50,190 bases of DNA from contig PCWA01000084.1 of NCBI GenBank assembly GCA_002796125.1, positions 88,045-138,234 on the forward strand, written 5' to 3'. Under the pieces are notes generated by a model. That model did no database searches. It saw only the letters and a list, made by a program, of their open reading frames with translations, and was not told the DNA's origin. Shown here one piece after another: positions 23,838-36,201 of the stretch (positions are counted from its first letter, which is position 1; each line of letters begins with the position of its first letter). This DNA is from Candidatus Ghiorseimicrobium undicola. GTDB lineage: Bacteria; Omnitrophota; Gorgyraeia; Ghiorseimicrobiales; Ghiorseimicrobiaceae. The position numbers were made by a program, and so were the translations under genes.

Positions 23838-24578
23838 TTAGACCGCGCCGAATCTTCTTTCTCTTTTTTCATACTCATTAATCGCTTTTTCTAAATCTTC
23901 TTTCTTAAAATCCGGCCACAGTTTTTTACAAAAATACAGCTCTGTATATGCCATCTGCCAAAGCAGAAAATTACTTAAGCGCTGTTCTCCTGAAGTGCGT
24001 ATAAGTAAATCCGGATCCGGCAAGTCCTTGGTATAAAGATACCCGGAAAAATACTTCTCGTCTATCTTTTCTATTTCAAAATCGGAATTTTTCTTAATAT
24101 TTCTGGCTATGGAGCTGACCGCGTCTATTATTTCACAGCGGGAGCCGTAATTCAAAGCCAAATTCAAAATAAAACTGGAATTCTTTGCCGTTTTTTTCAC
24201 TCCGTCATCAAGCACTCGGCGCACACTAGGCGAAAGATTATCCGGACGCCCTATGACATTTAAACGAATGCCGCGCTTGTTTAAACTTTTCAGGTTTAGC
24301 TTCAGAAACAACTGCAAGTAATTCATCAGCGCGTCAATTTCCTGCCTAGGTCTGCTCCAGTTTTCCGTTGAAAAAGCAAATATTGTCAGGATCTTTACAC
24401 CCAGCTCCTGCGCTGCTTTTATCGCCCTCTTTACACTATCACATCCTGCTTTATGCCCTAAACTCCGCGGCAGGTGGCGTTTCCTTGCCCAACGGCCGTT
24501 ACCATCCATTATAATCGCTATATGCCTGGGAATCATTTTTAATCTGCTTAACAAAATGGGGGATTTATTATCCCCCAT
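23838..24578 (-). CDS. uppS: Isoprenyl transferase (undecaprenyl diphosphate synthase)
   Basis: cis-prenyltransferase that makes the C55 carrier for peptidoglycan and O-antigen. Signatures are RHIAIIMDGNGRWA (catalytic Asp), GHKAGCDSVKRA, FAFSTENWSRP and the C-terminal DLLIRTSGEQRLSNFLLWQMAYTELYF. The start is uncertain: GTG at 24602, ATG at 24578 (AAGG five bases upstream, 246 residues) or ATG at 24536 right before the conserved IPRHIAI. I chose 24578. With that choice the start codon lies within a perfect 10-bp hairpin. Confidence 0.93.
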   Translation of the reverse strand: MGDNKSPILLSRLKMIPRHIAIIMDGNGRWARKRHLPRSLGHKAGCDSVKRAIKAAQELGVKILTIFAFSTENWSRPRQEIDALMNYLQLFLKLNLKSLNKRGIRLNVIGRPDNLSPSVRRVLDDGVKKTAKNSSFILNLALNYGSRCEIIDAVSSIARNIKKNSDFEIEKIDEKYFSGYLYTKDLPDPDLLIRTSGEQRLSNFLLWQMAYTELYFCKKLWPDFKKEDLEKAINEYEKRERRFGAV

Positions 24579-24579
24579 T
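24555..24579. promoter_or_regulatory. Perfect hairpin over the uppS start
   Basis: AATGGGGGAT (24555-24564) and ATCCCCCATT (24570-24579) are exact complements around a five-base loop. On the minus strand the second arm contains the candidate ATG at 24578, and the hairpin is followed by TTGTT. It could hide the start codon, act as an attenuator, or be a coding coincidence. Confidence 0.5.
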
Positions 24580-24650
24580 AGAACCTTGCCGTAATCAAAC
24601 ACGGCATCTGTCCCATAACAAACGAAATTAAACCGGCGCGGCTTCTTTAC

Positions 24651-25043
24651 TCATCTTTTTTTCTGCTCTCTGGCGTTATTTGCAAGCGCTTCTTTTAAAT
24701 CCTCTTCCATGGCGGCCTTAAGCTTGGTTATTTTATCCAGCTCTGACTTAAGCGTCTTGCTGGCAAGCAATTCTTCATCCAAGCTCTTTTTTAGCTCTTC
24801 CAGGGCTGCCTTATTATTCTCCAAGTCAGCAGTCAACTTTTTAATTTTATCTTCAAAAGACGTCTTCTCTTTCAAGAAAGATATGTTCTGCTCTTCAAAT
24901 TCAAGGCGAAGCCGCATTTCATTCTTCATGTCTTTTTTGACTTTGCTTAACTCGCTGGTTACGCCAAAATCCCAGACAAAAAGCATGACGCAAGCTATCC
25001 CTATAATTAAAATTATTCTGTTCTTTATCGCTTCATTTATCAT
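24651..25043 (-). CDS. Small membrane-anchored coiled-coil protein
   Basis: I do not recognise this protein. Its 130 residues have a short N-terminal MINEAIKNR, one hydrophobic helix (about residues 9-28) and then an uninterrupted charged coiled coil to the C-terminus, rich in E, K and L heptads. By topology the coil would face the periplasm if the N-terminus is inside. I take the ATG at 25043; an in-frame GTG at 25055 lies inside repeat copy B. It stands between the OmpA-type lipoprotein and uppS, so an envelope-structural role is a guess from context only. Confidence 0.65.
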   Translation of the reverse strand: MINEAIKNRIILIIGIACVMLFVWDFGVTSELSKVKKDMKNEMRLRLEFEEQNISFLKEKTSFEDKIKKLTADLENNKAALEELKKSLDEELLASKTLKSELDKITKLKAAMEEDLKEALANNAREQKKR

Positions 25044-25317
25044 TTTAATGAGCACATAACTTACGGAGGCGAAGCCGACGTAAGTTATAAGTGCGAATTA
25101 ATCTCCTCGCTTAAGCAAGGAGTAAATTCTCTTCGAGAATTTACCCCTTAAGCTTCGGAGTAGGTTAGAACTTATTAAGCTTGAACCTACCCGCAGCCTG
25201 CCCACAGGGGCGGACCATCCTAACACCTTTTAAGGATGAGCCCTATCGGATAAATATCGGAGAGATTTACCCGATGTTTAGGCAAGGGATACCCTAACGT
25301 CTAATGAGCCCACAACT
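25044..25317 (-). repeat. Modular palindromic repeat, composite copy B
   Basis: Fills the whole 274-base gap. Module 1 (25047-25103) is almost identical to copy A. Module 2 has CTCCTCGCTTAAGCA from 25104, an inner stem TAAATTCTC-TTC-GAGAATTTA (25123-25143) and GCTTAAG/CTTAAGC as outer pairing. Further hairpins are GTAGGTT/AACCTAC (25160-25190), CCGC...GCGG with CCTG-CCCA-CAGG near 25191-25213 and CATCCT/AGGATG near 25216-25238. Module 3 follows (CGGATAAAT/ATTTACCCG, about 25247-25274). A partial module 1 end (AATGAGCCCACAACTT) abuts the OmpA-type gene. Confidence 0.8.
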
Positions 25318-25974
25318 TTATTTAAGATTTTCCTTTGATAAGCCGGGCATCTCCTCATCTAAGCCTTCTCTAACTTTGGTTACTTTAGGTAAAATAACAA
25401 TTTCTACCCTGCGGTTTTGCTGACGGCCTTCTTTAGTATCATTTAAGGCAACCGGCCTAAACTCTCCATAGCCGATCGCTGAAACTCTCTCCCCTTCTAT
25501 GCCTTTTTCGTCTACCAGATAATGTAAGACACTTAACGCCCTGTTGGCGGATAATTCCCAATTAGACTTCCATCCTGAATGTTTAATCGGCACATTATCG
25601 GTATGGCCTTCAATACCCACATTGTTATCGGGAACATTTTCTGATAATACTTTGGCAATTTTATCCAGCGTGGCGTAGGCAGAAGTCCTTATGTCCGCCT
25701 TGCCTGAATTGAATAATATATCCGCAAGGAAAGTAATAACCAGGCCGCGTTCAGCCATTTCCAAAGTTACTTCTTTATCTGAAATTTCCTTTTTTAGTCT
25801 ATTCTCCAACAATCTTTTGGCGTCTTCCAGCTCGCTTAACTGCCTGCTCAACGATTCTATTTTTTTGATATCCGATCTCTTACCCTTTTGCAGTATCAGT
25901 GTGCATCCGCTTAAAGCAAAAACCAGCATAAACACAAAAAATACCCTCATTCTATAATTTATTGCGTTTGTCAT
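25318..25974 (-). CDS. OmpA-family lipoprotein
   Basis: Outer-membrane lipoprotein that binds peptidoglycan, 218 residues. The lipobox ends in LSGC with C24 as the lipidated residue. A coiled-coil stretch (about residues 35-70) follows, then an OmpA C-terminal domain with LFNSGKADI, VGIEGHTDNVPI, NWELSANRALSVLHYL and GYGEFRPVALNDTKEGRQQNRRVEI. The Asp and Arg of TD and NRRVEI are the diaminopimelate-binding pair. The start at 25974 has a strong GGAGG ribosome binding site and a promoter-like sequence upstream. Resembles Pal and the MotB-like OmpA group; no partner genes are nearby. Confidence 0.93.
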   Translation of the reverse strand: MTNAINYRMRVFFVFMLVFALSGCTLILQKGKRSDIKKIESLSRQLSELEDAKRLLENRLKKEISDKEVTLEMAERGLVITFLADILFNSGKADIRTSAYATLDKIAKVLSENVPDNNVGIEGHTDNVPIKHSGWKSNWELSANRALSVLHYLVDEKGIEGERVSAIGYGEFRPVALNDTKEGRQQNRRVEIVILPKVTKVREGLDEEMPGLSKENLK

Positions 25975-26040
25975 ACTTACCTCCGGTTATGTTTAATATA
26001 TAATGAAATTATACCTATTGGCGGGAATCATCTTCCCTAT

Positions 26041-26068
26041 ATTATCCCAATATACAAAAAAAAGTCAA
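26041..26068 (-). promoter_or_regulatory. Putative sigma70 promoter of the OmpA-type gene
   Basis: On the minus strand TTGACT (26063-26068) is followed after 16 bases by GATAAT (26041-26046). The spacer starts with seven T residues. The predicted leader is about 60 bases, with GGAGG just before the ATG at 25974. It lies in the gap after the purA stop. Confidence 0.6.
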
Positions 26069-26090
26069 GGAAAATCGCCTTTACCCTTAT

Positions 26091-27446
<1,356 letters not shown>

Positions 27447-28688
27447 TTACGGTGTCATTGTAAAAATTTTACGCGCTATGTCAGGATGCCTTGCAATAAA
27501 CAAAAGCTCAGCCTGAGTTAACGGTTTCTGATTATGCACATTAGCGTACCTAACCAAGTCTAAAACCTCAGCCGCCTCTTTATCGTTTTTAAATTCGATT
27601 TCCAGCTTCTCAAAGACGTTTCTAAACCCCTTTATACCGCTATATTCTCCGGCAGTGATTTGCCTCCCAGTATCGACAATTTCGGCTTCCCCTCTTCCTA
27701 ATTCCTCAAAATCATACAGCTCGTAATTACGCCTGTCCTTCAATGCTCCATCAGCGTGTATGCCTGATTCATGCGCGAAGGCATTTGCCCCTATGCCGGG
27801 CTGATTTATGGGAATGGGGACTCCGAAAGCGTATGAAGCGTATTTACACATACGCCATGCAACCTTTAAATCTATCTTTTCATCTAAAAAGTCTTTACCT
27901 TTAAAACCTTCACCGTATTTTATCGCAAGAATTACACTTACTATATCCGCGTTGCCGGCGCGTTCCCCCATACCGTTTACGCAGGTATTAATATAGGCGT
28001 CCTCTCCGCATTCAATAGCGGCGATGGCCCCGGAAATAGAATTAGCTACAACCAGCCCCAAGTCATTATGGCAATGCACCTCGATCGGCATCTTAATCGC
28101 TTTAACCAGTTTTTTGATTCTTTCGTAAATTGTAAACGGCGTATCACAACCCAATGTATCACAATACCTGATTCTGTCAGCTCCTGCTTTCTTTGCGGCC
28201 TGCGAAAATTCTATCAGGTAATCAAGGTTTGTCCTGGATGCGTCTTCGGCGTTTACACCTATGCTAACCGCGCCTAACCTGCGCGCCTCAGCTACCGCCT
28301 CAGACATCTCCTGAATTACCGAAGCATGATCAAGCTTGCCCTTAAATTTATGTATAATCATCTGGTCAGAGGTGGAAATAGAAAGATTTAGGTGCTTAAT
28401 ATCCGGCGCAAGTTTAAATGTCGTCAGCACATCTTCCCTGGTCGCCCTTAACCAGCCTCCAAGGCGCATAGGAAAAATAACTTTATTTTTTGCCAATTCT
28501 AAGTTGGCATTGAGATAATTTGTTTCATGGCGCGTAACCGGAAAACCAAATTCAGACTGAAAGATCCCCATTTCATTCAGGTACATGTTTATCATGGTTT
28601 TTTCCAGCTTAGATAAGCATATACGCGAGGTCTGCACGCCGTCTCGATTAGTTACATCTATTATATATATTTTATTTTTTGAGCTCAT
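27447..28688 (-). CDS. Homocitrate/Re-citrate/isopropylmalate synthase-family enzyme
   Basis: Claisen-type condensing enzyme of the DRE-TIM metallolyase family, 413 residues. The metal motif is VTNRDGVQT (D16) and the HxH ligand is VHCHNDLGLVVAN; GVNAEDASRTNLDYL, DRIRYCDTLG and NGMGERAGNAD are also conserved. The family includes homocitrate synthase NifV, isopropylmalate synthase, citramalate synthase and the Re-face citrate synthase of strict anaerobes. The sequence alone does not choose. There is no C-terminal LeuA regulatory domain. It follows the phosphoesterase-thioredoxin gene with an AGGAG ribosome binding site; no leucine, lysine or nif genes are nearby. Confidence 0.85.
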   Translation of the reverse strand: MSSKNKIYIIDVTNRDGVQTSRICLSKLEKTMINMYLNEMGIFQSEFGFPVTRHETNYLNANLELAKNKVIFPMRLGGWLRATREDVLTTFKLAPDIKHLNLSISTSDQMIIHKFKGKLDHASVIQEMSEAVAEARRLGAVSIGVNAEDASRTNLDYLIEFSQAAKKAGADRIRYCDTLGCDTPFTIYERIKKLVKAIKMPIEVHCHNDLGLVVANSISGAIAAIECGEDAYINTCVNGMGERAGNADIVSVILAIKYGEGFKGKDFLDEKIDLKVAWRMCKYASYAFGVPIPINQPGIGANAFAHESGIHADGALKDRRNYELYDFEELGRGEAEIVDTGRQITAGEYSGIKGFRNVFEKLEIEFKNDKEAAEVLDLVRYANVHNQKPLTQAELLFIARHPDIARKIFTMTP

Positions 28689-28714
28689 CTGTTATCTCCT
28701 GGTAAGTTATTCTT

Positions 28715-30511
28715 TTATTTAAGCATTTTTTCCAGCTCTGATTTTTCCGGAGCTTTTATAATACTAAACACCTCCTGATTATCAACCAGAAACGTCCCGA
28801 AAGAAGAAATCTGAAGCTCGATGCCTAAGGCTATATTTTCCATAAACAGGCCCTTGCCTTCAATAGATGCGCTGCAAGACTTTATTAAATTAATATTCAT
28901 GCCGCAGGAATTCAGGCAATCATCCCACCAGCTGCTCTGGATGTTTTTAGCGCGGCAGGAAAGATAATCCCAGTATTTATCCGGGTATTTAGCCATAACG
29001 CACACAGACCTGAGATCCTCTTCTACTTCCGGTAACCCATAGGGGGTAATAATATTTTCTTCCGAAGGCTGCAGGGCTATGAAGTGAAGTTTAAAATTTA
29101 TATTTTTATGCTCTTTATCGCTTAAAAAATCTTTCATCATATCCAGAAGCGCTGCGGTATTTTTATCATACAAGCTGACGAATAAATCGAGGGTTTTTTC
29201 TTTCTTTTCCCTGCCCACAAAAAATGATACGCCCAAAACGCTTGGGTCAAGAAGGTATTTATCGCCTTTTGGAACCAGGAACTTCCGGAAGCTGTTAAAA
29301 TTAGCATTTTTCTCAACCTCCCTGCCAAACAAATACGCCGGGAGCATCTCTACCCCTAAATCCTTGACCAAATCCCTGCCTTTTTTTGTTTCGTAATAAA
29401 CGCGGGAAATATCCACATTCCAGAATGTATCTTTAAAATATTTTTCCGCCTGCTCCAGCTTACAGCTGGCGCATTTTTTCGGCGAGATTATCAGTATGGA
29501 AATTTTTTCCGGCTCCTTAAATTCACACTTTGCAGAAAGCGTGCCAGAATCATTACACGTACCGCTAAATCCTTTTTTTCTACAATCCGCTGATGAAAAA
29601 CATTCAGGCAAAACAGATAATGCTTCCTTATCGTCTTTTATTTCATTACCGATAGTTATATCGTCTATATTGTAACTTATAATCCTTCCGTCTTTTATTT
29701 CCAATTCCGCTTTGCCTAATTTTCTACCCTGCCATCCGGGCCGTAAAATTATGGTCTGGCCTATTTTATCATTATGGCCAGGATCGCTGCTCAGCTTATG
29801 ACCGGTAACCAATACATCAATACCATAAACATTGCGGATTAGGCCTAAATCCTCATCTTCCCCCAGATGGCTCAATACCACTATAATATCCGCCCCATCC
29901 TGCTTCAGGGCGCCGATGGTTTCTTCCAGTGCTGCCTGCGGTTCCGTATATTTTATATCGGATATTTTGCGCTTTACATCATAATTACTCAAGGCAACCA
30001 TGCCTACCTTGATATTTCCTTTCTTGATTAATGCGTGATTCATCAGGTAACCATTTTCAATATTAGAAGAAAGAAAATTAATGCCTTTTGTTTTGGCAGC
30101 CTCTTTTAAAAAATCTTCCCCGAAATTAAACTCTTCATCGCCTACGGCTACGGCGTCATAACCCATCAGCTTCATGGCATCTAAATTTACCAATGTCCTT
30201 TGTTTATCAAGCTCAACACTTTGCGTATATTCATCCAGCAGCCCTCCGGCAAAAACACCGCCGCTGTCTACAAGCAGTATATTAGGATTAGCTTTGCGCA
30301 GCTCCTTGATTTTTGTCGCGCGCTTAGCCAGCCCCCCGGAAATATTAAGCGGGCATGACCCGCAGGCATAAAGCATAGAGTGGGTCTCGCCTGTATAAAG
30401 AACCGTAAGTCTTTCCGTGTCGGCATAAGAAAAAGAATAAACAAAACAGGCTAGAATAAAAAAGATCTTCAGCATTTTAATATTTTTAATTTTAGATTTT
30501 AGATTTTTCAT
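28715..30511 (-). CDS. Exported metallophosphoesterase-fold protein fused to thioredoxin-like domains
   Basis: 598 residues, exported by a signal peptide (residues 1-30). Residues 34-290 have the 5'-nucleotidase metallophosphoesterase fold, but several metal and catalytic positions are changed (see findings), and a CGSC pair (50-53) sits beside the first metal motif. Residues 304-329 hold four cysteines. Residues 336-430 look like thioredoxin, with C347-A-S-C350 and a cis-Pro-like MLP391. Residues 440-598 resemble a DsbA-type fold without the N-terminal CxxC; C504, C519, C532, C536 and C546 lie in its helical part. It is coupled to the DUF1573-CcdA gene one base upstream. The first 12 codons are a low-complexity repeat, and M13 (30475) is another possible start. 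Function unknown. Confidence 0.75.
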   Translation of the reverse strand: MKNLKSKIKNIKMLKIFFILACFVYSFSYADTERLTVLYTGETHSMLYACGSCPLNISGGLAKRATKIKELRKANPNILLVDSGGVFAGGLLDEYTQSVELDKQRTLVNLDAMKLMGYDAVAVGDEEFNFGEDFLKEAAKTKGINFLSSNIENGYLMNHALIKKGNIKVGMVALSNYDVKRKISDIKYTEPQAALEETIGALKQDGADIIVVLSHLGEDEDLGLIRNVYGIDVLVTGHKLSSDPGHNDKIGQTIILRPGWQGRKLGKAELEIKDGRIISYNIDDITIGNEIKDDKEALSVLPECFSSADCRKKGFSGTCNDSGTLSAKCEFKEPEKISILIISPKKCASCKLEQAEKYFKDTFWNVDISRVYYETKKGRDLVKDLGVEMLPAYLFGREVEKNANFNSFRKFLVPKGDKYLLDPSVLGVSFFVGREKKEKTLDLFVSLYDKNTAALLDMMKDFLSDKEHKNINFKLHFIALQPSEENIITPYGLPEVEEDLRSVCVMAKYPDKYWDYLSCRAKNIQSSWWDDCLNSCGMNINLIKSCSASIEGKGLFMENIALGIELQISSFGTFLVDNQEVFSIIKAPEKSELEKMLK

Positions 30512-30512
30512 C

Positions 30513-31724
30513 TTACCCCCTGAAAATTAACAATAAAACGCCTAAGCCGAGAAATATCACGGCTGTCAGTAATTTTACTTTAGCTAAATGCTTGCGCGCT
30601 ATCCTTTCAAAAAAAGAAGACGTAAAACCGTAAAAGGCCAAAATAAACACACATATCAATGGTAGAATAAACATAAAGTTATAGAGCAAAAAATAGAACA
30701 TTGCCCGCGCTCTTAGGTCGGGAAGTTTCATTATAAAAGCGATAGCGGGAAGATAAAGCTGCCCGGTACAGAATAACTCCAGAATAGATACGAGAAAGCC
30801 GCAGCTTAAACTTGCCAGGGCAACAGGGACCAACGCCCTATTAGAATCCTTATCTTTAATAAAATCCTGCCGGATTACACTCTGTATTTTGCGCTTTATC
30901 AAAAAAGGCAGTTTTATAATCACATTTTCCGGATTTTTTGTTTTTACATAAACCCAAAAATCGTAAATATTGAGTGTGCCTACGACAAAAGCAAATACCG
31001 CGATTGAGCGGTAAAATATATGAGAAAAGCGAACAAACGATTCCAGGCTTCGGATTGTTTTAAAAAAGCCCAGGCCTATCAGCATATAAGTTATATATAC
31101 CGATAAGATAAATAAAATCCCAACAACGATTAAGTCCCTCCTGCGGTATCCGGTAAACGCCAAGAAAGAAACAAAGAATACCATCACCGTAAAAGCGCAG
31201 GGATTTATGCCGTCTATCAATCCGGCGCTTAAAATCGCTAAAGCGCTAAAATCCGAAAATCTGTCAATGAAAGTCTGCTTTTGGGCTGCAACATGAGTTT
31301 TTACTTCTACCCTAAGCAAAGAATCAACAGCGTCAGAAGTATATATATAAAGAAACTTACTCTCTTCGCCGATTAATCCCGTGGTATCTAATTCAAAAGT
31401 TGCTTCCTGGCTTGCGTATGGCGGAATTTCAACTTTTTCTTTGGGGCTGATAACCTTAAGGCAGGCACAGCCTAAAACTTCAACGCTCGCATTAATAGGC
31501 GAAGACGTATTATTTATAATAGAAAAGGTTTCTGTTGTTTTTACGCCTTCATTAATGCTACCCAGGTCTATGACATTATCTTTTAAGCTGGTCGTAACAT
31601 TGGCCGCAAAAAGAGAAGAAGCAGAAATAGATAAAGAAATAGCGGCGCTAATCAAGCCAGCCCGAAAAACGCAAGGCAAAAAAACCCTGTATTTTAACAG
31701 CCAAACAGAAACCTCTCTGATCAT
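30513..31724 (-). CDS. DUF1573 domain fused to a CcdA/DsbD-type electron conduit
   Basis: 403 residues. A signal-anchor (about 20-40) is followed by a periplasmic DUF1573 domain (50-146) whose usual CGC motif appears as C86-A-C88. Residues 155-401 have six hydrophobic helices of the cytochrome c biogenesis (CcdA/DsbD) family, with the conserved cysteines at C176 (GINPCAF) and C319 (ELFCTG) on the first and fourth helices; C308 is extra. This family passes electrons from cytoplasmic thioredoxin across the membrane. The start overlaps the serA stop by four bases (ATGA), and the next gene encodes an exported thioredoxin-like protein, its likely acceptor. Confidence 0.85.
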   Translation of the reverse strand: MIREVSVWLLKYRVFLPCVFRAGLISAAISLSISASSLFAANVTTSLKDNVIDLGSINEGVKTTETFSIINNTSSPINASVEVLGCACLKVISPKEKVEIPPYASQEATFELDTTGLIGEESKFLYIYTSDAVDSLLRVEVKTHVAAQKQTFIDRFSDFSALAILSAGLIDGINPCAFTVMVFFVSFLAFTGYRRRDLIVVGILFILSVYITYMLIGLGFFKTIRSLESFVRFSHIFYRSIAVFAFVVGTLNIYDFWVYVKTKNPENVIIKLPFLIKRKIQSVIRQDFIKDKDSNRALVPVALASLSCGFLVSILELFCTGQLYLPAIAFIMKLPDLRARAMFYFLLYNFMFILPLICVFILAFYGFTSSFFERIARKHLAKVKLLTAVIFLGLGVLLLIFRG

Positions 31725-33304
31725 AGCTTTATTACTTTTACAGAAGAAATATTTTCTATCTTTTTTATTTCCGCGATAACATCAAGCGAAGGAGCGCTAT
31801 CTATATTTAATAAGGTTATGGCCTTGCCTCCGGCAGTCTCCCTGCCGAAATTCATACCCGCGATATTAATCTTGTGCCTGCCCAAAAGCATGCCTAACGC
31901 GCCGATTATTCCCGGCTTATCCAGATTATAGACAACAAGCATAACGCCCCGGGGTATCGCCTCAACATAAAAATCATCCAGCTTTACAATACGCATCTGC
32001 TTGTTGGTAAATAATGTGCCGCTTACGCGGTGGCCGCCCTTATCCGTTCTTACGCTTACGGAAATCAGGTTGGTAAACTCCTCTGATTGCTCAGACTTGC
32101 TTTCATTTACTTTTATCCCTCTTTCTCTGGCTAAATTTAAGGCGTTAACAAAATTCACCGTCTCCTGGAGGCTCGGAGAAAGGAGCCCTTTTATCACCGC
32201 CAAAGTAAGCGGAGAACAATCCATCTTTGTTATATCTCCATTATATTCAATCCTTACATCCGCAAATCTTCCTTCAATAATTTGGCCTGCGAATAAACCT
32301 AATTTTTCCGATAAATTTATATAGGGCTGGAATATCTTGCACGCTTCCGGTTCAAGGCAGGGATAATTTGCCGCGCTCCTAATACCCCTTCCCAGAAGAG
32401 CATCCCTTACGGATTCGGCTATTTCTATCGCTACATTAACCTGGGCTTCTTCGGTAGACGCGCCTAAATGAGGAGTCGCGATCAAGTTATCTAATTTCAA
32501 TAATTCCATATTTTTAGGCGGTTCCTCTTCAAATACATCCAAAGCCGCCGCCATCACTTTTTCTTCTTTAAGCGCGCGGTATAACGCATCCTCGTCTATG
32601 ATACCGCCTCTTGCGCAATTGATTATACGGACCCCTTTCTTCATTAACTTAAACTCTTGGTCCGATATTATATGTTTTGTATCTTCCGATAAAGGAGTGT
32701 GCACGGTGATATAGTCGGCGCGCTTGAATAATTCTTTTAATTCTAATAACTCTATCCCCATTTCCTCCGCTTTTTGACGCGATAAAAAAGGATCAAAAGC
32801 GATTATTTTCATCCCGAAAGAAAGAGCGCGCTTGGCAACTTCATTACCTATCCTGCCTAATCCTATTACGCCTAATGTCTTGCCATACAACTCGACGCCC
32901 ATAAAATTAGAACGCTTCCATTCGCCTTTTTTCATTGAAGCGTTTGCCTGAGGGACGTTGCGCGAAAGTGCCAGAAGCAGGCTTAAGGTATGCTCACAAG
33001 TTGATATGGTATTGCCTCCGGGTGTATTCATGACAATTACGCCCTTAGCGGTTGCCGCCTCCAGGTCTACATTATCCAAACCTACCCCCGCCCTGCCTAT
33101 CACTTTAAGGCTGGAGGCATTCGATAAAATATCTTTAGTAACTTTAGTGCTGCTTCTTACGATTAAGGCATCATAAGAAGCAATAATATTTTCTAACTCT
33201 TCCGCCTTAAGGCCGGTCTTAACTTCCACGGATAAATCTTTTTCTTTTTCCAGAATATCCAGGCCTTCCCTAGCTAACGGATCGCTAATAAGTATTTTAA
33301 ACAT
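31721..33304 (-). CDS. serA: D-3-phosphoglycerate dehydrogenase
   Basis: First step of serine synthesis. I start at the ATG at 33304 (MFKILISDPL), which has GGAGA seven bases upstream; an in-frame codon at 33346 lies in a palindrome. The 527 residues contain the NAD domain (GVIGLGRIGNEVAKRA), catalytic NCARGGIIDEDAL and the HLGASTEEAQ His loop, an ASB domain (about 310-440) and a C-terminal ACT domain with NLDKPGIIGALGMLLG for serine feedback. The upstream gene is a class V aminotransferase that may perform the next step. Confidence 0.96.
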   Translation of the reverse strand: MFKILISDPLAREGLDILEKEKDLSVEVKTGLKAEELENIIASYDALIVRSSTKVTKDILSNASSLKVIGRAGVGLDNVDLEAATAKGVIVMNTPGGNTISTCEHTLSLLLALSRNVPQANASMKKGEWKRSNFMGVELYGKTLGVIGLGRIGNEVAKRALSFGMKIIAFDPFLSRQKAEEMGIELLELKELFKRADYITVHTPLSEDTKHIISDQEFKLMKKGVRIINCARGGIIDEDALYRALKEEKVMAAALDVFEEEPPKNMELLKLDNLIATPHLGASTEEAQVNVAIEIAESVRDALLGRGIRSAANYPCLEPEACKIFQPYINLSEKLGLFAGQIIEGRFADVRIEYNGDITKMDCSPLTLAVIKGLLSPSLQETVNFVNALNLARERGIKVNESKSEQSEEFTNLISVSVRTDKGGHRVSGTLFTNKQMRIVKLDDFYVEAIPRGVMLVVYNLDKPGIIGALGMLLGRHKINIAGMNFGRETAGGKAITLLNIDSAPSLDVIAEIKKIENISSVKVIKL

Positions 33305-33331
33305 AATCATTCTCCAATCAAAATCCGGGGA

Positions 33332-33368
33332 AATTACACAAAACAAGCATTGCTTGTTTTGTGTAATT
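33332..33368. repeat. 37-base perfect palindrome between serA and the aminotransferase
   Basis: Two 18-base arms, AATTACACAAAACAAGCA (33332-33349) and TGCTTGTTTTGTGTAATT (33351-33368), are exact complements around a single T. It starts two bases after the aminotransferase stop codon. It has no GC-rich stem and no T-run after it, so it is not a standard terminator. Confidence 0.85.
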
Positions 33369-33370
33369 CG

Positions 33371-34507
33371 CTATTTTAAAAATGCTTCTTCTGCCGCTTT
33401 TACGCCTCTGCCCAGCTCAAATTTATAACCTAAATTGGTTAACGCTTTTTCAAGGCAGGAAATACCGGTAATAATATCAAACTCGTCGATATATCCCATA
33501 TGGGCAATTCTGAATATCTTGCCCTTTAACTCACTCTGGCCTCCGGCGATAGTAACGCCGTATAGATCACGCATAGATTTAACAAGTTTCTCTCCATCAA
33601 GGCCTTGCGGCACCTTGACCGCCGTAACCACATCAGAGGAGGCAGTGGGCGCGAATAATTCCAGGCCCAATGCCTTCATCGCGCGGCGGGTCGCATCCGC
33701 CAGCCGCCTATGGCGTAAAAATATTTTTTCAAGGCCGTCTTGTTTGATTATTTTTAGGACTTCGTCTAAAGCGATGATTAAATTTATTGCCGGAGTAAAA
33801 GCCGTATCATTTTTATCGTATGCCTTTTTTGCCGCTTTCAGGCTAAAATAATATCTGGGATTCCTAGAATTCTCCGCAAAAACCCAGGCCTTGGCGCTTA
33901 CGGAAATAAAACCAAGCCCCGGAGGAAGCATAAGGCCCTTTTGCGATCCGGAAACTACCACATCGCAAGACCAGTCATCCGTCTTTAAATCAATGGCTCC
34001 CAGCCCGCTTATCGCATCAACGATCAACAAAGCGGACGTATTTTTCACAAGCGAACCTATGGCTTTTATATCGTTTACTACGCCGGTAGATGTCTCGCAT
34101 AAAGTCGCAAATACGCCTTTAATTGCGATATTTGCTTTTAAGCGTTTTTCTATTTCCAGATGGCTTACTGCTTTTCCCCATTCAACATTTATAATTTCAG
34201 TATTAATATTATATGCCCTGCATATTTCTGTCCAGCGTTCGCCGAACTTTCCTCCCTCAACGATCAAAACAGTATCACCCGGAGAAAATAAATTTGCTAC
34301 AGCCGCTTCCATGGCCCCGGTTCCTGAAGAGGCAAGGATAAAAACATCGTTGTCTGTCTGGAATACGTGTTTTAAGCCGGCATAAACCTCTTTTAATACA
34401 GCCTGGAATTGCGGCGTGCGGTGATGAATAATGGGACGGGCCAATGCTTCACAAACCTTAGGCGGTAAAGGCGTAGGCCCGGGAGTCAAAAGATAATTCT
34501 TGCGCAT
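33371..34507 (-). CDS. Class V aminotransferase (serine/alanine-glyoxylate type)
   Basis: PLP enzyme of 378 residues. It starts KNYLLTPGPTPLPPKV and contains PIIHHRTPQF, ILASSGTGAMEAAVANL, the SGSQKGLMLPPGLGF loop with the PLP lysine, and AHMGYIDEFD. The family covers serine-glyoxylate, alanine-glyoxylate and phosphoserine-type activities. Its place directly upstream of serA suggests the phosphoserine aminotransferase step, since no serC is in view; this is an inference. Ribosome binding site GGAGG. Confidence 0.88.
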   Translation of the reverse strand: MRKNYLLTPGPTPLPPKVCEALARPIIHHRTPQFQAVLKEVYAGLKHVFQTDNDVFILASSGTGAMEAAVANLFSPGDTVLIVEGGKFGERWTEICRAYNINTEIINVEWGKAVSHLEIEKRLKANIAIKGVFATLCETSTGVVNDIKAIGSLVKNTSALLIVDAISGLGAIDLKTDDWSCDVVVSGSQKGLMLPPGLGFISVSAKAWVFAENSRNPRYYFSLKAAKKAYDKNDTAFTPAINLIIALDEVLKIIKQDGLEKIFLRHRRLADATRRAMKALGLELFAPTASSDVVTAVKVPQGLDGEKLVKSMRDLYGVTIAGGQSELKGKIFRIAHMGYIDEFDIITGISCLEKALTNLGYKFELGRGVKAAEEAFLK

Positions 34508-34531
34508 AAAACCTCCACAATAAATCCTATA

Positions 34532-34557
34532 TAGAGAACGGTCGCGGCCGTTCTCTA
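34532..34557. repeat. REP-like 10-bp palindrome in the aminotransferase leader
   Basis: TAGAGAACGG (34532-34541) and CCGTTCTCTA (34548-34557) are exact complements around TCGCGG. There is no T-run on either side. It resembles the short GC-rich palindromes of REP type that I remember near RAYT transposases; no transposase is visible here. Confidence 0.65.
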
Positions 34558-34572
34558 CAGATAATATTAACC

Positions 34573-35199
34573 CTATTTTTTTGTGACAATTACTTCGTCA
34601 ATCAAGCCGTACTTTTTCGCCTCTTCGCTGGACATGAAATAATCGCGATCGGAATCTTTTTTAATTTTTTCTTGCGTCTGCCCAGTATGTTTAGCCAGAA
34701 TTTCTTCTATTTTTTCCCTCAAGCGGAGTATTTCATTAGCCTGAATAGATATATCAGCGGCTGCTCCCTGCACCCCGCCCCAAGGCTGATGTATCATTAT
34801 ACGTGAATTCGTAAGGGCATAACGTTTTCCCTTTGTCCCGGCGGCAAGTAAAAGCGCTCCCATGCTTGCGGCCTGGCCTACACAATAAGTAGAAACCGGC
34901 GCTTTCACAAATTGCATAGTATCGTATATCGCAAGCCCGGCGGTAACCGAACCTCCCGGAGAATTAACATAAAGATTAATCTCGCGATTAACATCTTCCA
35001 TCTGTAAAAATAACATCTGGGCTATTATCAAATTTGCGACATTGTCATCAATAGGCGTGCCTATAAATATAATGCGGTCTTTAAGTAGGCGGGAATATAT
35101 ATCATATGCCCTTTCAAAACCGCGGCTGGTCTGCTCAACCACCATGGGGACCAATACCTGCCCTGCTTCCGGATTACGAAACTGTGAATTTGTTTGCAT
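34573..35199 (-). CDS. clpP: ATP-dependent Clp protease proteolytic subunit
   Basis: Serine protease that forms the 14-mer barrel. I start at the ATG at 35199, which has a GGAGG ribosome binding site; ORF-extending codons at 35211 and 35238 lie in or before that site. The 208 residues have the triad S112 ([10 protein letters not shown]), H137 (IMIHQPWGG) and D186 (SDRDYFMS). It follows tig, as in many bacteria, but clpX is not downstream; an aminotransferase is. Confidence 0.97.
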
Positions 35200-35221
35200 A
35201 TTTACCTCCATTTTATCTTCT

Positions 35222-35322
35222 GCTCCTCGCTTAAGCAATGGGGAAATTATCGGAGAGAATTTCCCTATTGAGCTCCGGAGTAAGTTCAGACATATAACTT
35301 ATGTTCGCCTAGGCTCCCGTCC
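35222..35322 (-). repeat. Modular palindromic repeat, copy D (module 2 type)
   Basis: CTCCTCGCTTAAGCA at 35224-35238 is identical to module 2 of copy B. It is followed by GGGGAAATT...AATTTCCC, an imperfect complement of the outer sequence (ATTGAGCTCCGGAG), then TAAGTTCAGACATATAACTTATG, which itself can pair. It fills the gap between tig and the clpP leader. The clpP ribosome binding site is intact. Confidence 0.65.
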
Positions 35323-36201
35323 TCACTTATCCGTCCAGTTGGCTTCTTTAAATAAAAATTCCAATGTCTTTGCGGTGCCGCTTTTTTCATCAATAGTAAT
35401 ATTTTCCAATTGCGCGATTTTATCCAGGATAAAATAAATTTTAAGGTCTTTCATAACCGCTTCGCGCAACGCCTTCTCGGCGTCTTTTTTGCGCTTATCT
35501 ATATCTTCTTTGGTTAAACCCTGGCGCCTTAACTGATAATCCAGCATATTGAGCCGTTCTTTATATTCGTTCTCAAGTACCGACTGCGGCAGGTCCAGCT
35601 CAGCGTTGGAGATAAGAAATTCTATTACTTGCGATTCATGCTGACGCCTGGCATTCTCCGAATAGCTGACAAACAATTGATTTCTTACCAGTTCCTTAAG
35701 GTTAGAAAGCGATGGATAACCAATACTCTTGGCAAAATTATCGTCAAGAATATCCGCCTTTTTTTCTTTCTTTATATTTTCCAGGGCCTCATTGACCTTT
35801 TCATCGCTGAGCTCAATCTGCGCTCTTTTAATTTTTATGCCTTTATATTTCTTTATATTCACTTCCGGCCTTACCTCAACCACCGCCTTAAAGGAGAATC
35901 CGTCATTCTTTAAATTGATATCGCTGATTACCGGATGATTGATTACTGAAATTTTTTCTTTGTCTATTGCCTGCTTGTATAAATCCTCCACCAGCTCCTG
36001 TATAACGCTGGACTTAGCTGCTTCATTATATTTTTTCTCAATTATATTACGCGGCGCCTTACCGGGCCGGAAGCCGGGAATCTTGGCCTCTTTAGCAATA
36101 TGCGCATAAACTTCATCATATTTCTGCTTTACGGCATCTTTGCCTGTTTCGATATTTAATTCAACTTTTGATTTACCTATTTTTTTTACCTGAATATTCA
36201 C
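35323..36201 (-). CDS. tig: Trigger factor lacking the FKBP (PPIase) domain
   Basis: Ribosome-associated chaperone. At 292 residues it is far shorter than the normal 430. The N-terminal ribosome-binding domain is intact, with the signature IPGFRPGKAPRNIIEKKYN near residue 41. The linker strand (ELSDEKVNEALENIKKEKKA) then runs directly into LDDNFAKSIGYPSLSNLKELVRNQL, which in normal proteins follows the FKBP domain. The C-terminal chaperone arms are present. The start is GTG with AAAGG upstream. It precedes clpP. Confidence 0.92.
   Translation of the reverse strand: MNIQVKKIGKSKVELNIETGKDAVKQKYDEVYAHIAKEAKIPGFRPGKAPRNIIEKKYNEAAKSSVIQELVEDLYKQAIDKEKISVINHPVISDINLKNDGFSFKAVVEVRPEVNIKKYKGIKIKRAQIELSDEKVNEALENIKKEKKADILDDNFAKSIGYPSLSNLKELVRNQLFVSYSENARRQHESQVIEFLISNAELDLPQSVLENEYKERLNMLDYQLRRQGLTKEDIDKRKKDAEKALREAVMKDLKIYFILDKIAQLENITIDEKSGTAKTLEFLFKEANWTDK

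Follow-up and report, generated by a model that had tools for sequence, protein, structure and literature searches.

The gene analysed here lies on the reverse strand of the window, the whole 50,190-nucleotide stretch of DNA that was examined, and its open reading frame (28715–30511) encodes a protein of 598 residues. The genome belongs to the Omnitrophota; a relative with 58% identity carries the name 'Omnitrophica bacterium GWA2_41_15'. The features of the gene and of its upstream neighbour are collected in Table 1.

Table 1. Coordinates in the window of the 598-residue protein, its motifs and the adjacent membrane protein gene
Feature	Coordinates	Strand	Basis
Whole gene: UshA-like domain lacking the metal site, Cys module, thioredoxin-type tandem	28715..30511	-	598 aa; architecture in 93 ORFs
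Probable signal peptide, residues 1-30	30422..30511	-	By eye from sequence
UshA/5'-nucleotidase N-terminal fold, residues 34-288	29648..30412	-	PDB E 1e-15; model pTM 0.85; Z 29.6 vs CD73
E42-x-H44 (GETH) replacing the D-x-H metal motif	30380..30388	-	Alignment
CGSC, cysteine pair C50/C53	30353..30364	-	CxC or CxxC in 91/93 homologues
GGLAKRAT (59-66), helix start	30314..30337	-	G59, G60, R64 invariant, 93/93
DSGG (82-85) replacing DAGD	30257..30268	-	Metal-bridging Asp missing, 93/93
GDEEFN (124-129) replacing GNHEFD	30125..30142	-	Catalytic His and Asp lost
SHLG with H215	29861..29872	-	His kept in 17/93
GHKL: H238; L240 replacing His/Gln	29792..29803	-	H238 kept as His in 22/93
Cys-rich module: C304, C310, C319, C329	29525..29602	-	95, 95, 95 and 93 of 95
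Thioredoxin-type tandem, residues 338-598; unit 1 with C347-A-S-C350, unit 2 without active-site CxxC	28715..29500	-	Relatives match DSBA/GILT/Thioredoxin, window protein does not
CASC (347-350)	29462..29473	-	CxxC missing in 7/95 homologues
Upstream neighbour: DUF1573 domain and CcdA-like membrane domain, 403 aa	30513..31724	-	Stop one base before the start of the 598-aa gene
C86-A-C88 of the neighbour's DUF1573 domain	31461..31469	-	CxC in 12/12 such neighbours
C176 of NPCAF, neighbour's first membrane cysteine, on the FTPC cysteine of canonical CcdA	31197..31199	-	Cys in 50/51
C319 of FCTGQ, neighbour's second membrane cysteine, on the SPCTAP cysteine of canonical CcdA	30768..30770	-	Cys in 50/51

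From 23838 to 36201 the genes run in the order tig, clpP, aminotransferase, serA, (DUF1573-CcdA-like), the 598-residue protein gene, homocitrate/2-isopropylmalate synthase-like, purA, OmpA-type and uppS, an order shared by many families of Omnitrophota. Trigger factor, ClpP, phosphoglycerate dehydrogenase, adenylosuccinate synthase and undecaprenyl pyrophosphate synthase were identified above their NCBIfam cut-offs; the aminotransferase, the homocitrate/2-isopropylmalate synthase relative and the OmpA-type protein scored below theirs. The same order was found in most of 40 neighbourhoods that have the gene, with the purA cluster in 32 and the serA cluster in 31 (41 neighbourhoods were given, L099 being without the gene, and clusters were named after the window's own genes). 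This recurring order places the UshA-like/thioredoxin gene among housekeeping genes. A role in serine synthesis, as suggested by the upstream serA and aminotransferase genes, was set aside in view of the signal-like N-terminus and the missing phosphatase dyad.

Fold and former metal site of the N-terminal domain

Pfam gave one weak match to the protein (Metallophos, E 0.0042, under cut-off) and, up to E 1, none to the C-terminal domain of 5'-nucleotidases. The best NCBIfam match was NF041198, UshA_like_PCGU (2.2e-34, 118.9 bits, residues 17–274), below its cut-off of 275; NF049981, UshA-like family 2, scored 61.1 bits against a cut-off of 140, and the SoxB model (TIGR04486) 82.6 bits against 550. 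Sequences of 5'-nucleotidases in the PDB matched residues 34–239 (phmmer, E 1e-15). A model of the UshA-like domain built from four sequences (pTM 0.85) aligned with CD73 (Z 29.6) and with SoxB (Z 26.9), and the N-terminal fold is thus that of UshA. In this model the cysteine loop has a pLDDT below 50, the fold being otherwise good; a model of the full-length protein was unusable (pTM 0.39).

In an alignment with canonical 5'-nucleotidases, the motifs quoted in the first-pass annotation (E42-x-H44, CGSC at 50–53, GGLAKRAT, DSGG, GDEEFN, H215, H238 and L240) were all present and fell at the UshA positions that it had assigned to them. With UshA numbering and ligand roles (D41, H43, D84, N116, H217, H252, H/Q254), the protein retains three of seven metal ligands and neither residue of the catalytic dyad, the places of which are held by E126 and N129. 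It shares its N-terminal fold with the UshA and CD73 5'-nucleotidases (COG0737), but differs from them in these losses and in having no C-terminal nucleotide domain. The fold is also common to the SoxB thiosulfohydrolase, whose dimetal ligands are not kept here. SoxB is an enzyme of sulfur chemistry that works on a carrier cysteine.

Ligand loss and a retained cysteine pair across the family

A profile search at E 1e-20 found relatives in 136 of 384 genomes of the phylum. From the loci of this and previous searches, 166 distinct ORFs that carry one of four modules were retained; 93 of them have the order UshA-like, Cys module, thioredoxin-type and are referred to below as window-type. Five canonical 5'-nucleotidase domains, each with seven of seven ligands and none with the cysteine pair, served as the comparison set.

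Among the 93 window-type domains, D41 is found in 9 (with E in 28 and Q in 33), H43 in 71, D84 in none, N116 in 5, H217 in 17, H252 in 22, and H or Q254 in 10. Counted per domain, no ligand is kept in 17, one in 36, two in 23, three in 16 and four in 1, and the catalytic dyad is fully lost in 90. The cysteine pair is present in 91 of the 93. It usually has the spacing CxC (80), and the 598-residue protein has the rarer CxxC (11). The two exceptions are L060, which is without both cysteines and retains its thioredoxin CxxC, and L177, which is without the second. When the 279 columns were ranked by entropy, the cysteine columns came 7th and 9th, as against ranks of 173 for D41, 72 for H43, 139 for D84, 225 for N116, 233 for H217, 260 for H252 and 270 for H/Q254, which agrees with the earlier view that the pattern is not one of random decay. 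Six residues (G59, G60, R64, Y48, G84 and R105) are invariant in all 93 and many more are nearly so; R105 is invariant, yet it is not a canonical 5'-nucleotidase residue.

A homologue of the same architecture with all seven ligands would have marked the window protein as a lone degenerate copy, and there is none among the 93. As judged from these alignments, it is a trait of the family, and not the decay of one copy, that the metal site is lost and the cysteine pair kept. The pair also extends beyond the window type, to nine of nine CcdA-fused domains, the one cytochrome-fused domain and both strongly diverged domains (L096 and L097, in which the GG motif is lost and the loop CxxC kept). The former site itself has more than one form. 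In the clade of the 598-residue protein, E42, H44, D125, H215 and H238 are kept in four of four members, and the nine CcdA-fused proteins, all of family f4, keep D41, D84, H217 and H252 in every case, with R replacing H43, E replacing N116, D replacing H254, and a CHC pair. A different metal set or a metal-thiol site, both proposed in the first-pass annotation, are not supported for the family as a whole because the ligand columns drift freely; a leftover metal site may persist in the clade of the 598-residue protein or in the CcdA-fused group.

The same annotation had called the cysteine pair new. UshA-like proteins with CxU and with CxxU, however, are already catalogued as families in NCBIfam, and NF041198 and NF049981, both UshA-like (seleno)proteins, are by profile match the closest named families. 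NF041198 also has an N-terminal UshA-like domain; its motif after the first metal motif is Cys-x-Cys/Sec (CxU), where the 598-residue protein has CxxC and 80 of the 93 relatives have CxC. An Omnitrophota protein that scores 223 bits on NF041198, L089 of genome G012 (...EPCGC...), ends in a cytochrome c554 domain, whereas the 598-residue protein ends in the Cys module and thioredoxin tandem. NF049981, also with a UshA-like domain, resembles our protein in its CxxU/CxxC spacing but is a weaker match than NF041198. At L089:1360-3980 the gene immediately upstream of the UshA-like (PCGC)-cytochrome c554 fusion encodes a DUF1573 protein, which gives the domain a second, cytochrome-based setting beside DUF1573.

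A 'COG0737, UshA-like' protein with CxU was reported among marine selenoproteins in 2008 and grouped there with the small number of families that have no conserved Cys-based redox motif (PMC2398784). NF041198 (CxU), NF049981 (CxxU) and DUF1573 with UGC appear in a 2026 paper (PMC13188914), and the NF041198 family is included in one from 2022 (PMC9312934). The available portions of these three papers give no function for the UshA-like selenoproteins. Within the available portions of the literature searched, which included disulfide and thioredoxin systems in Omnitrophota, nothing was found that ties a UshA-like/metallophosphoesterase domain to CcdA, thioredoxin or DUF1573.

In an unrooted tree of 55 of 110 domains, the canonical, fused and window-type domains formed separate groups, with starred support. 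Where the fused group and the long-branch cytochrome type belong was weakly supported (85/64), and the tree does not, therefore, establish a single origin of CxC. The pattern fits a stepwise loss of the metal site during which the thiol pair would have been retained. On viral contigs there were two canonical-type relatives and none from the UshA-like Cys family. The UshA-like domain matched 256 plasmid records, the 30 matches listed being unannotated or named nucleotidase, UshA or phosphodiesterase, and the cytochrome-fused type had no match on plasmids.

The thioredoxin-type half and its proposed membrane partner

The C-terminal half of the 598-residue protein matched no Pfam model and had no significant match among solved structures. 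Its probable thioredoxin nature follows from homologues: L094 of genome G004, which aligns with this half, matches DSBA, GILT and Thioredoxin_4 over cut-off. C347 and C350 are cysteines in 88 and 89 of 95 homologues, and the second unit of the window protein is, by eye, without the CPxx motif that is present in G004. Seven of the 95 homologues, five of them in family f28, are without the thioredoxin CxxC, and all seven keep the UshA-like cysteine pair. At the same operon place, three shorter homologues (L091:6515-7537, L092:6373-7410 and L095:6499-7413) consist of the thioredoxin part without a UshA-like domain, indicating that the thioredoxin part can do without this domain.

Pfam DsbD_TM did not match the 403-residue neighbour up to E 1. 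When its membrane domain was compared by HHalign with 20 ORFs gathered with the genome's canonical CcdA, the two aligned over 218 columns (probability 90, E 1.7e-6) with both cysteines in register, and on this profile alignment the domain is classed as CcdA-like. The separate canonical CcdA lies elsewhere in the same genome, beside a thioredoxin-like gene (by eye from ORFs); a search of the genome for VKOR was negative.

A DUF1573-CcdA-like gene is directly upstream of 12 of the 95 UshA-like/thioredoxin genes (nine from an automated scan, plus L169, L171 and L172 added by reading), and the DUF1573 part carries CxC in all 12. A CcdA-like gene is not adjacent in 82 of the 95 by the automated scan, or in 79 after the three additions, with 4 that could not be judged. 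In some proteins the parts are joined. In the nine f4 proteins a single chain combines the UshA-like CxC domain, a thioredoxin-like stretch with CxxC of the GCRSC type and a CcdA-like membrane domain; the ninth, L112, is cut by a contig end, and its thioredoxin-like stretch is absent from the stretch listing. As this group belongs to one taxonomic family, the fusion may have arisen once. In six other proteins the thioredoxin part of the window type is joined to a CcdA-like membrane domain. Family f6 has proteins of 950–1115 residues with one to three thioredoxin-type units and a CcdA-like membrane domain (L195:990-4334, L196:1392-4736 and L197:1630-4479), and two CcdA-like proteins with an N-terminal CxC and CxxC (L209:1470-2984 and L210:1639-3639) possibly hold DUF1573 and thioredoxin on one chain.

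In a sample of 145 genomes, 31 of the 33 with the UshA-like domain also have CcdA-like genes, as against 13 of the 112 without it, a comparison that ignores kinship and in which family f9 dominates. Counting the three fusion genomes among the others gives 28 of 30 against 16 of 115, again with kinship ignored. G100 and G140 are the two UshA-like genomes without a CcdA-like membrane domain; the cytochrome-type G012, the canonical G010 and eight genomes with the thioredoxin part only were placed outside the 33. We give the fusions more weight than these co-occurrence counts. The redox-active thiol part of the first-pass proposal draws support from the CcdA-like, thioredoxin and DUF1573 modules to which the domain is fused or adjacent.

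The domain order of DsbD, which includes the Ig-like nDsbD domain, offers a comparison. Common to the DsbD/CcdA relay and to the genes described here are a membrane cysteine pair that aligns with that of CcdA, an Ig-like domain (here DUF1573) and a thioredoxin unit. The present system differs in that DsbD_TM is not matched and in that the UshA fold, and not an Ig fold, forms the proposed output domain.

Candidate roles of the UshA-like domain

The reading towards which we lean, with some reserve, is that the gene product is a secreted protein of thiol redox chemistry, in which a UshA/SoxB fold without its dinuclear metal site works through C50 and C53 and is fed by the CcdA-like relay. Like nDsbD, the UshA-like domain would most likely serve in the periplasm as a thiol relay domain, on a nucleotidase fold that is dead as an enzyme. 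Electrons supplied by the cytoplasm would cross the CcdA-like membrane domain (C176/C319) to its DUF1573 CxC domain and pass from there to the CASC thioredoxin unit of the 598-residue protein, directly to the UshA-like CxxC, or to both, and from the UshA-like CxxC to a client protein or a small disulfide substrate. The UshA-like domain would then stand in the place of the Ig-like nDsbD of DsbD. We infer redox activity of the pair, the direction of electron flow and the existence of a client from retention of the cysteines while the ligands vary, from the fusions, the DUF1573-CcdA-like adjacency and the co-occurrence, from the persistence of the pair where the thioredoxin CxxC is gone, and from the catalogued Sec relatives. 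Against the relay stand the lack of a CcdA-like neighbour at most of the window-type genes, the unmatched DsbD_TM, the separate canonical CcdA with its thioredoxin-like gene, the cysteine losses in L060 and L177, the shorter homologues in which the UshA-like domain is missing, the restriction of the fused group to one family, the C-terminal half without a Pfam match and the low pLDDT of the cysteine loop.

The cysteines could have a different partner or a different purpose. In a metal-thiol enzyme, C50 and C53 would hold one metal together with residual ligands (E42, H44, D125, H215 and H238 in the window clade; D41, E116, D84, H217, H252 and D254 in the fused group), and the domain would reduce or transfer a small sulfur, selenium or arsenic compound while the thioredoxin and CcdA parts keep the thiols reduced. 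The constancy of the five residues in the window clade, the four canonical ligands with E and D at two others in all nine fused proteins, and the nearness of SoxB in structure and in profile score are in its favour, but the ligand columns vary and 53 of the 93 window-type domains keep at most one ligand, which makes a metal centre shared by the whole family improbable; we consider this explanation unlikely. Less likely again is a binding-only or scaffold domain, in which the fold would be a spacer or client-binding module, the cysteine pair a structural disulfide, and all redox chemistry the work of the thioredoxin unit. CD73 has a structural disulfide in the loop. Snake-venom 5'-nucleotidase aligns with two cysteines in the same loop, presumably also a structural disulfide, and some homologues do without the UshA-like domain. 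The canonical cysteines are widely spaced, however, whereas 80 of the 93 domains here have CxC; relatives carry Sec at this motif, which a structural disulfide would not need; and in seven of seven cases the pair outlasts the thioredoxin CxxC.

Two further explanations retain very little probability. The kept fold and GGLAKR block could mean that the domain is an active phosphohydrolase or nucleotidase and uses an unusual set of metals, but 90 of the 93 domains have neither residue of the His/Asp dyad and Pfam finds no C-terminal 5'-nucleotidase domain, so that such an activity is very improbable. A decaying copy under no constraint, which would explain the lost active-site residues, was rejected as scarcely credible, given that the 93 homologous ORFs share six invariant residues and many that are nearly invariant, in a conserved housekeeping neighbourhood.

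The thiol relay, to return to it, may have a counterpart at the level of the family, which we put forward more tentatively. A hydrolase fold may have become the thiol, and elsewhere selenol, redox output module of a DsbD-like membrane relay: the metal ligands would have been shed and the CxC/CxxC pair would have taken over, within thioredoxin/CcdA chains in most Omnitrophota carriers and with a multiheme cytochrome in another. If this is correct, a metallohydrolase fold has been taken over for thiol redox work, and DsbD-type relays would gain a new output domain. It would also provide a testable role for the UshA-like selenoprotein family, catalogued since 2008, for which the fusion to a CcdA-like membrane domain supplies a concrete hypothesis.
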